DNA from: Bacteroidota bacterium | GTDB taxonomy: Bacteria > Bacteroidota > Bacteroidia > Flavobacteriales_D > Crocinitomicaceae | Length of the DNA: 64,000 bases | Reading direction: 5' to 3' | Assembly (NCBI GenBank): GCA_006226425.1 | Contig: SBGX01000006.1 | Location: 186,001-250,000, forward strand | Made by a program: the position numbers and the translations under genes | Notes under the pieces: generated by a model | Database searches by the model: none | What the model saw: only the letters and a program-made list of their open reading frames with translations | Told to the model about the DNA's origin: nothing | Part shown: in pieces, positions 7,754-11,418 of the stretch | Layout: each line of letters begins with the position of its first letter | How positions within the stretch are numbered: the first letter of the stretch is position 1

Positions 7754-8944
7754 TTAAGATTTAGCCTGCACGTAGCAGAGATAGTTGTTTTCGGTATGTG
7801 CCAATTGCGTTTGTATTTGGACGAATTCCTGAAGAAGAACCGATAATACCGTTTCTCGAAGCCAAAGTTTGTCCACCGCGATCAGTCGCTCCGGTTGATC
7901 CGGAAAGTAGCTTTTGACAAGCGTGTTGTAATCTTCGATTTGCTTTCTCAGTTCTACCTGAGAGAAGGGGCCCCGAGCATGCTCAAATTCCTGTCGGACG
8001 ATTCGATTGTCGTTCAGTCTTTTGATGTCTTTGAAAGGAATACTCCGTGCCTTTTCGATACTTACCCCCTCAGAAACGGCCACCAAATGGTTTCGGGTTT
8101 CCTCGAGGTGTTCATTTAGTTTTGAGCTGGCACGGTGAAAACGAATAACAGAATCATCATCCGCCACTTTTTGAAGCAAAAGTGAATTTGCTTTGGCCAG
8201 ATCTTCCTTGTGGGAATAGAGGTAATCATGTGTGGCAAAAAAGCTGCTTTTCAGTGTTGCACTGTAGCCTAGATTGATCATGGCAAAGAGCAAACTCCCG
8301 AGAGCCATCATGAGCACTGAATTGACAATGGTGTTGAAGCGAATTTCCGGCCTCCTGATCCGACTCATGAAGTAGATCGGGACATAAGCAAAAACGAATA
8401 CGGAAATTCCGCCCAGCATGAGTATGTTGGCAGCTGGCCAGTGCATTAGTTTGAAAACCATTCCCGAACTAGTAATGATTCCCAGGAGGAATCCAAAGCT
8501 CAGGACCCACTTATCCGTTCGCTCCTCTTCATCACGGAACTTGAGGACGATCATCAGTGGTAGAAAAACGAGTGCAAAAAAGAGTCCCCCCAAGATGATC
8601 ATGGCGGCAGCACCCGGTAAGTGAAAGATTTTGAAAATGGCCCCAAGAAGTGCAAAAAAAGTGGCAGCTATACCTGAGTATTTTAAGGTCTTTTTCATGG
8701 CGTAAAAATTTTTAAACGTTAGCAAATTGTCTGTTTCATCCTGTATTTCCTTCAATTCCATTTGAAAGAAACGAGGAAGCATTCGTTCATAGAACGCAAA
8801 GAAATTGTCCGATTCGGTCAACTCCTGCTCGACGATACAGCACATGTGATCCAGTAGGTTATCTTGCAGATCTTCAAGAATCACCCCACGTGCCCGGATA
8901 TCATCCAGCATGAAGTCAACTTCCTCTTCTTTAACCCTGTACAT
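7754..8944 (-). CDS. Membrane protein with HAAS-like N terminus, partner of the PadR regulator
   Basis: A 396-residue protein. The first 80 residues are a soluble helical domain with the DLQDNLLDHMCCIVEQEL signature. This resembles the HAAS-type domain found in membrane proteins encoded beside PadR regulators. Roughly residues 88-215 contain about four to five transmembrane segments, with two similar FKxxHxPxA stretches (FKIFHLPGA and FKLMHWPAA), suggesting an internal duplication. The C-terminal 170 residues are a hydrophilic, probably coiled extracytoplasmic region rich in Glu, Lys and Arg. The ATG lies inside the end of the padR gene (14-base overlap), so translation is coupled. In known PadR pairs the membrane partner responds to envelope state and the regulator controls both genes. 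That role here is an inference. Confidence 0.75.
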   Translation of the reverse strand: MYRVKEEEVDFMLDDIRARGVILEDLQDNLLDHMCCIVEQELTESDNFFAFYERMLPRFFQMELKEIQDETDNLLTFKNFYAMKKTLKYSGIAATFFALLGAIFKIFHLPGAAAMIILGGLFFALVFLPLMIVLKFRDEEERTDKWVLSFGFLLGIITSSGMVFKLMHWPAANILMLGGISVFVFAYVPIYFMSRIRRPEIRFNTIVNSVLMMALGSLLFAMINLGYSATLKSSFFATHDYLYSHKEDLAKANSLLLQKVADDDSVIRFHRASSKLNEHLEETRNHLVAVSEGVSIEKARSIPFKDIKRLNDNRIVRQEFEHARGPFSQVELRKQIEDYNTLVKSYFPDQPERLIAVDKLWLRETVLSVLLQEFVQIQTQLAHTENNYLCYVQAKS

Positions 8945-9281
8945 GACCCGATTTGGTTTGTAGATCCAACAAAAATCTCATCGTTTCAATGAAATCAGCG
9001 AATTCATTCACCCGTTCGGTAGCCGTGTTCTTTCCCTGTTCCGTCAGTTTGTAATATTTTCGGACGCGTTTCCCCATGTACTCTTTTTCGGTTTCTAGTT
9101 CACCGTTTTTTTCGAGTGCATGAAGCGTGGGGTACAAAGCACCTTCCGTGATTTGAATTTTTCCTGCTGTTAGTTCCTTTACCTTTTGGGTAATTTCATA
9201 ACCATACATTCTTCCCTGCTTTTTCAAGAGTTCGAGAACGATGGTTTTCAGGGTTCCTTTTATGAGCTCAGATGTATACAT
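8931..9281 (-). CDS. PadR family transcriptional regulator
   Basis: A 116-residue winged-helix protein from the ATG at 9281. It contains the PadR core YGYEIT, followed by ITEGALYPTLHALEKNGELETE and the wing region GKRVRKYYKLTEQGK. The frame can be extended 12 residues upstream, but that would run through the -7 promoter element at 9286-9293, so I start at 9281. PadR proteins are dimeric repressors that often control their own operon; two matching inverted repeats (9291-9311 and 9321-9343) over and upstream of the promoter are the obvious candidate operators. It overlaps the downstream membrane-protein gene by 14 bases. The transcript appears to be leaderless. Confidence 0.9.
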   Translation of the reverse strand: MYTSELIKGTLKTIVLELLKKQGRMYGYEITQKVKELTAGKIQITEGALYPTLHALEKNGELETEKEYMGKRVRKYYKLTEQGKNTATERVNEFADFIETMRFLLDLQTKSGHVQG

Positions 9282-9285
9282 AAGA

Positions 9286-9318
9286 CAAAGATACATAACA
9301 ATCTTATGTATTTCCAAA
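9286..9318 (-). promoter_or_regulatory. padR promoter (-33 and -7 elements)
   Basis: On the minus strand TTTG (9318-9315) and TATCTTTG (9293-9286) are 21 bases apart, a good match to the Bacteroidota -33/-7 arrangement. The -7 element ends 4 bases before the ATG, so the start site would coincide with the start codon. Confidence 0.65.
9291..9311. promoter_or_regulatory. Candidate PadR operator 1 (inverted repeat)
   Basis: ATACATAA-N5-TTATGTAT is a perfect inverted repeat with 8-bp arms. It covers the spacer between the -33 and -7 elements and overlaps the -7 element, the classical position for a repressor site. Confidence 0.65.
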
Positions 9319-9320
9319 TA

Positions 9321-9343
9321 AATACCTAAGAAAATTAGGTATT
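9321..9343. promoter_or_regulatory. Candidate PadR operator 2 (inverted repeat)
   Basis: AATACCTAA-N5-TTAGGTATT is a perfect inverted repeat with 9-bp arms and the same 5-base spacer as operator 1. The half-sites differ at one core position (ATACATAA against ATACCTAA). The two centres are 31 bases apart, about three helical turns, which fits two dimers on one face of the DNA. Confidence 0.6.
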
Positions 9344-10410: not shown

Positions 10411-11418
10411 TCAGACACTTTTCAGAACCTGATCGACGCTTATTTTTTCAATGCAGTGGCATTTCTCTCCCTTTTTACAAGTCGGACATTCCGGATCGTT
10501 CACTAAAAAAGTAGCCTTCAGGCCAAGTGCTTTCCACCGTCCAGGGTGAATGGGTCTTCTGGATGAAAACAGTCCGATGGCTCTAATACCGGTGACTCCA
10601 GCCAGGTGGTATGGCCCTGTACTGCAAGCAACCAGTGCCTTGGCCTGGGAGATTAGGACAATCAATTGCTCCAAACTCAGGCGACCACTTAGATCAAGGC
10701 ATTTTTCTTCATGAGGAAGTTGATCCCGAAATAGAAGTCCTTCTTTTTCTGTACCGGTAAAAACGGCAGTATATCCTTTTGAGATGAGTTCCCGGGAGAG
10801 TTGTATATAGTTCTCGAGAGGCCACTCCAGGGCACTTCCCTGGGATTTTGGGTGCAGAACGACAAAGTTAGAGAGAGACTGTAAGTCTGGTGGAAGTTCA
10901 ATGTCCGGTGTCTGAAAATGTGTACTGGTCCATTGACTAATTTCCTTCAAACTGGGAAGTTCCTCCAGACCAAGCGGTTTGCATAAATTGAAACTCAGGG
11001 CTGATTCGTGTAACTCGGAACGCTTTCGTGTGAAAGAGACACGGTGGTTGCAGGTCAGCAAATGAAAGCTTCGGTGCGAGGTTCCAATGCGATGTGGCAC
11101 TTTGGCTCGATGCATTAGACGTGCAATGTCTTTGTTTGGAAAAACGTGGATACAGCAAAAAATATCCTGTGATTTGATCTGTCTGATACGCTCTTGTTCG
11201 CTTTGATTGATCAGATCATCCCAACAAATAATTTCGTCAATCGGTAGGTAACAGGAGACGACGGCTTTGGTATAAGATCGACAGAGGAATAGGATGCGAC
11301 TTTCAGGAAATTGTTTTTTTATCCAACTGCAAATGGGAAGCGTCAGAACCACGTCGCCAATGCTGTCTGTGCGACTGATCAGAATGGTTTTTCCATGAAA
11401 GTCCGGCGTCTGTTTCAT
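10411..11418 (-). CDS. Glycosyltransferase family 9 (heptosyltransferase-like)
   Basis: A 335-residue GT-B fold enzyme of the ADP-heptose:LPS heptosyltransferase type. The N-terminal motif KTILISRTDSIGDVVLTLPI is the GT9 acceptor-side signature with the catalytic-region Asp. The C-terminal domain carries the donor-binding ACSTGPYHLAGVTGIRAIGLF motif (the family's STG-P-H-A stretch). A C-terminal cluster PECPTCKKGEKCHC has four cysteines and one histidine and could bind a metal. It starts directly after the stop of the GT2 gene, with no gap. GT9 enzymes add heptose or a similar sugar to the lipopolysaccharide core on the cytoplasmic face; the actual sugar here is unknown. Confidence 0.88.
   Translation of the reverse strand: MKQTPDFHGKTILISRTDSIGDVVLTLPICSWIKKQFPESRILFLCRSYTKAVVSCYLPIDEIICWDDLINQSEQERIRQIKSQDIFCCIHVFPNKDIARLMHRAKVPHRIGTSHRSFHLLTCNHRVSFTRKRSELHESALSFNLCKPLGLEELPSLKEISQWTSTHFQTPDIELPPDLQSLSNFVVLHPKSQGSALEWPLENYIQLSRELISKGYTAVFTGTEKEGLLFRDQLPHEEKCLDLSGRLSLEQLIVLISQAKALVACSTGPYHLAGVTGIRAIGLFSSRRPIHPGRWKALGLKATFLVNDPECPTCKKGEKCHCIEKISVDQVLKSV

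Follow-up and report, generated by a model that had tools for sequence, protein, structure and literature searches.

A conserved pair of putative PadR operators at the promoter of a padR-membrane protein gene pair in Bacteroidota

The 64,000-nucleotide stretch of DNA analyzed here (the window) carries, on the minus strand, a padR gene at 8931..9281 and the gene of a partner membrane protein at 7754..8944, which encodes 396 aa and overlaps the end of padR by 14 nt. The padR product (116 aa) is a winged-helix regulator of the PadR-s2 type. It matches PF03551 (2.6e-20; 72.6 bits against a curated cut-off of 27), its recognition helix EGALYPTLHALE agrees with the PadR-s2 signature EGxLYPxLxxLE, and the signature tyrosines Y28 and Y50 are invariant across 25 orthologues. 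The start codon of padR is the ATG at 9281-9279. An in-frame ATG further upstream and the TTG of a 128-aa open reading frame were considered as alternative starts and rejected, since both lie inside the promoter and this region has no ATG in a clade of orthologues with a single operator site. The genome also possesses a second padR (L002, about 1380-1440; G000:C9), which precedes a PspC-like gene. Near its -7 box lies a differing repeat of its own, ATGTA-N8-TACAT, closer to the classical PadR box.

Two palindromes are located upstream of padR, both on the minus strand. Site A, the proximal one, occupies 9291..9311 and reads ATACATAA-GATTG-TTATGTAT; site B, the distal one, occupies 9321..9343 and reads AATACCTAA-TTTTC-TTAGGTATT. 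Both are perfect and have a 5-base spacer, and their centres, at 9301 and 9332, are 31 bp apart. Thus, the two inverted repeats of equal spacing described by the first-pass annotation were right to the base when the sequence was read directly. Their joint motif is ATACMTAA-N5-TTAKGTAT. This motif does not follow the PadR consensus ATGT-N8-ACAT, in which 8-10 bp separate the half-sites; written in the same terms it is ACAT-N9-ATGT, with the polarity reversed relative to the PadR box. Inverted repeats, the form expected for the target of a PadR-s2 dimer, are present and conserved as candidate targets.

The predicted promoter is interleaved with the two sites. A -33 element, TTTG, lies at 9315..9318 (minus strand), as judged from the Bacteroidota consensus, and falls between the two palindromes. 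The -7 box TATCTTTG (TAnnTTTG) is at 9286..9293 on the same strand, which corresponds to -12 to -5 if the A of the padR ATG is the transcription start. Site A overlaps the spacer between the -33 and -7 elements and reaches into the first bases of the -7 box, and site B is directly upstream of the -33 element. In Flavobacterium psychrophilum, the TAnnTTTG boxes of sigma-A were mapped at -12 to -5 (PMC9723704). The -7 box begins 12 nt ahead of the ATG, both here and in the leaderless orthologues, in agreement with this position rule, and the predicted transcription start is therefore the A of the ATG itself (9281, minus strand). Thus, the padR transcript is probably leaderless, and the leaderless -33/-7 promoter that had been proposed is supported by the positions of the two elements, the start itself being a prediction. 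Such a promoter would be of a minority type, since only 5.5% of the mRNAs were leaderless in the F. psychrophilum study (PMC9723704).

The sequence ATGTATACAT at 9272-9281, which overlaps the padR ATG, had been described as a short palindrome. As a palindrome it is not kept and is a by-product; most orthologues have ATGTATTCA. What is kept is a third half-site, TTATGTAT, at 9276..9283 on the minus strand. It repeats site A's right arm directly, 15 bp further downstream, and includes the start codon. In leaderless genes, the same place is occupied by [C/T]TATGTAT, with the ATG serving as the start codon. Since the codons ATG TAT alone could explain this sequence, support for a half-site in leaderless genes comes from the leadered relatives and from one genome, G007. 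Where the start codon of an orthologue is at another position, the half-site persists as TTAKGTA with an unchanged offset. At leadered promoters, a half-site at -2 (TTAKGTAT, up to 2 mismatches) was found in 66%, compared with 3.3% at 604 background TAnnTTTG boxes, and it was scarce at every other offset (at most 12%). In G007, TTAGGTAA comes after an operator pair of the window's type, and no start codon is present there. Its retention at the exact offset in leadered orthologues favours reading the start-codon sequence as a third half-site over reading it as a palindrome.

We analyzed how rare the motif is. The whole window has four perfect inverted repeats in which 8-bp arms enclose a 5-base spacer, and two of them are sites A and B. 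When up to 3 mismatches to the joint pattern were allowed, only these two sites were detected in the window, each with 0 mismatches, against a mean of 0.56 in the shuffled window. In the 3.41-Mb genome, too, sites A and B alone match ATACMTAA-N5-TTAKGTAT exactly. These results, the genome-wide exclusivity and the shuffles, rule out chance AT-rich palindromes. One further near-match in the genome (C4:21286, 2 mismatches) was rejected as an additional site, since it is no more than chance would give; a reversed control pattern matched 9 places per strand.

PadR orthologues were gathered from 99 related genomes and from named public genomes, the latter including Crocinitomicaceae, Brumimicrobium, Fluviicola, Flavipsychrobacter, Puia, Adhaeribacter, Flavobacterium and many MAGs. 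Among 94 non-redundant padR upstream regions, an exact site was detected in 34; with up to 1 mismatch the number rises to 62 and with up to 2 mismatches to 74, whereas shuffles gave 0.0, 0.0 and 0.2, respectively. Absence of the repeats upstream of orthologous padR genes had been named as a result that would refute the proposal; with the motif in 74 of the 94 regions, this was not what we found. About a fifth of the regions have no clear site, and some of these end at contig ends or have the promoter elsewhere. The motif is also linked to the gene. In 48 relatives searched at up to 1 mismatch, nearly all matches precede a padR orthologue, and genomes without an orthologue mostly lack the motif, apart from a few that have single-mismatch matches. 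In 20 of the 94 regions, two sites were detected at a distance of 28-32 bp, and in 18 of these 20 the distance is 30 or 31 bp. The earlier suggestion of an operator pair at this promoter, linked to padR and conserved upstream of orthologues, is supported.

The sites are arranged in three layouts. In layout I, the type of the window, the centres are at about -51 and -20, with an additional half-site at -2. In layout II, found in one sister group (13 sequences), a single site covers the -33 region from -48 to -28, and there is no proximal site. Layout III comprises orthologues with a 5' leader, mostly of about 15-25 nt, in which half-sites at -45 and -30 face left and those at -17 and -2 face right, placed symmetrically and 15 bp apart on each side of a common centre. 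In both layout I and layout III, the start of the proximal site is upstream of the -7 box at a constant distance of 18 bp, however far away the ATG is. Since it moves with the -7 box and not with the start codon, it belongs to the promoter. Thus, on these positions, the palindromes are read as a transcriptional operator and not as a coding or RNA signal. The two-site layout is restricted to one part of the family.

Two genomes, G007 and G028, contain an extra small GldL-like gene before padR, and the double operator is in front of this extra gene. In G007 (L030 1045-1339; G007:C26) the arrangement was read directly, and padR, now second, has no site of its own. In G028 (G028:C116, operators at 10805-10856) it was deduced from the positions of the sites. 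In both genomes, the double operator is several hundred bases upstream of padR. Thus, the double operator follows the promoter of the operon. Elsewhere, near a contig end (L062 158-178; G012:C123), the proximal operator recurs together with a -7 box and a leaderless start, here ahead of another short open reading frame, MYKSKLNSEAF...; this may be a second target or a captured promoter. The wing of PadR varies with the layout as well. The change K71N (GKR to GNR) accompanies the single-site layout, with 12 of 13 sequences classed as GNR compared with 1 of 68 others, and the 13th case, the truncated L028, also reads GNR (residue 71 loci: L017-L028, L112, L137 and L141). This is suggestive of a link between wing residue 71 and operator layout; since the covariation follows one clade, it was not used as proof.

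Since the palindromes are nearly exclusive to padR promoters, linked to padR and kept across Bacteroidota relatives, we consider them the putative operators of PadR itself. We put a probability of about 0.85 on the reading that the adjacent PadR binds sites A and B and represses the padR-partner operon, including its own gene. That PadR is the binder we infer from this exclusivity, linkage and conservation. Binding by another regulator, which would control padR from outside, is improbable. The genome does contain the second PadR, but that protein sits by the PspC-like gene with a different upstream repeat, and the present motif is practically confined to padR promoters and tracks the presence of the padR orthologue across genomes. 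It is more improbable still that the palindromes act as RNA, either terminating transcription of the upstream gene or forming a structured leader. Both would fold as RNA hairpins (z -2.9), and site B is about 33 bp past the stop of the upstream gene. However, both sites are upstream of the predicted padR transcription start, and in leadered orthologues they stay upstream of the -7 box. Moreover, a terminator scan found none, and the upstream gene is conserved in no orthologous locus, the longest upstream reading frame being opposite in 57 of 108. On these grounds the terminator and RNA reading was rejected.

Another alternative concerns the division of labour between the sites. The proximal site may be the sole operator, and the distal site auxiliary or activating, without cooperation between the two. 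Several orthologues (L014, L087, L117 and L124) retain the proximal site alone, and in the sister group the only site spans -48 to -28, across the -33 region. Where a distal site is present, however, its distance is almost fixed at 30-31 bp, as expected for dimers on one face of the helix. A sole proximal operator is possible, although we do not favour it. Since some orthologues carry a single site, cooperativity itself, which the fixed spacing would indicate, is uncertain.

According to the favoured reading, autorepression by PadR, one dimer would bind each 21-bp palindrome, flanking the -33 element. With site A across the spacer as far as the edge of the -7 box and site B directly upstream, RNA polymerase carrying sigma-A would be shut out. 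The third half-site, at the start codon and the first transcribed bases, probably extends the contact, and dimers 30-31 bp apart on the same helix face may aid each other. Repression of the padR-partner operon would constitute negative feedback. The partner, by analogy with PadR-DUF1700/HAAS pairs, would probably relieve the repression on sensing the state of the envelope.

The partner gene lies near the padR stop in nearly every orthologous locus with a readable downstream region, mostly no more than about 15 nt away and frequently with an overlap. Its product combines, in one chain, an N-terminal three-helix domain, two GldL-like hairpins and a GldM-like transmembrane and periplasmic domain. 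The N-terminal domain carries the motif LLDHICCxIE, and its helices span residues 6-18, 24-41 and 48-59 in the structure model. Residues 98-128 match GldL_N; the GldL-like family PF22827 was detected in 40 of 41 partner orthologues. In full-length partners the C-terminal part is related to GldM (profile E-value of 7e-6 to 7sau GldM; PF12081 in 9 of the 41 orthologues), and residues 229-396 superpose on PorM/GldM with a Z score of 17.3 and 2.3 A over 161 residues (model pLDDT 92). The glutamate in the second membrane helix of GldL carries protons. No acidic residue was found at this column in any of the 41 partner orthologues. The true GldL of the genome has the membrane glutamate (STEAVIF), and the true GldL and GldM genes are located elsewhere in the genome.

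The partner had been described as a HAAS-like membrane protein. The membrane protein beside padR stands; the HAAS label finds no Pfam support, and the protein is mainly GldL/GldM-like. HAAS, DUF1700 and DUF1048 gave no match to the partner (P0002) at E-values up to 1, nor to seven N-terminal regions at E-values up to 10, with HMMER filters on. HAAS was absent from the best 25 of the 98 families matched by the 41 orthologues, and no GxP motif, expected in the third HAAS helix, was found in the N-terminal region of P0002. A HAAS structure was absent from the fold search, in which the N-terminal part of the partner was barely tested. By analogy with PadR-HAAS pairs, the partner is likely the sensor that releases PadR.

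Members of the PadR-s2 group bind inverted repeats as dimers, and autorepression is known for several of them. Binding or repression of the own promoter has been described for LftR, LltR, LstR, LmrR and bcPadR1 (PMC6457526, PMC6624303, PMC4534193, PMC3506622). In Listeria, LftR binds its own promoter at a partly palindromic site with a Kd of 6.2 nM, and genes of the lltR operon are up over 100-fold in the mutant (PMC6457526, PMC6624303). As here, a small PadR-s2 gene heads the Listeria operon LltR-lmo0600 (DUF1700/HAAS)-lmo0601 with a multi-spanning membrane protein. Self-repression is known there, whereas it is predicted here, and the phylum and promoter class differ; in the passages of these reports that were consulted, we found no 30-31-bp operator pair or start-codon half-site, and GldL/GldM parts are not reported for the partner (PMC6624303, PMC6457526). 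LmrR of Lactococcus lactis is also a PadR-s2 autorepressor, with several dimers on its own promoter; its half-sites, ATGT and ACAT, are 8-10 bp apart, its partner is an ABC drug pump, and in our case binding is a prediction (PMC4534193, PMC5428041). The HAAS-PadR dyads of the phage-shock/Lia network share the stand-alone PadR and a membrane protein with a short helical N-terminal domain, whereas the present partner lacks a HAAS Pfam match or GxP and has a GldL/GldM-like membrane part (PMC11237479). With the GldL/GldM motor of type IX secretion, the partner shares the GldL_N match and the PorM/GldM fold, but both parts are on one chain and the acidic proton-carrying position is missing. In the literature searched, we found no description of PadR operators in Bacteroidota, of the 30-31-bp pair, the 15-bp half-site ladder, the start-codon half-site or clade-specific rearrangement, or of a motor-dead GldL/GldM fusion as a PadR partner.

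PadR self-repression is an ordinary circuit; here the sequence evidence for it is unusually clear, and the layout and the partner appear new. The motif offers a testable DNA-recognition code for this PadR group in Bacteroidota, whose operator layout seems to have been rebuilt around a conserved promoter between clades. More tentatively, a PadR family widespread in Bacteroidota might read half-sites arranged as a ladder, in steps of about 15 bp and with the core promoter at its centre, the outermost half-site lying at the start codon of leaderless padR genes and the layout rearranged between clades as a 31-bp pair, a nested pair or a single site over -33; its signal might come from a motor-dead single-chain GldL/GldM-like fusion, an envelope sensor derived from the type IX secretion system. 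The switch is linked to a membrane protein family that consists of type IX secretion and gliding motor parts and lacks the proton-carrying residue, which suggests that the padR-partner pair is an unstudied envelope-sensing module.
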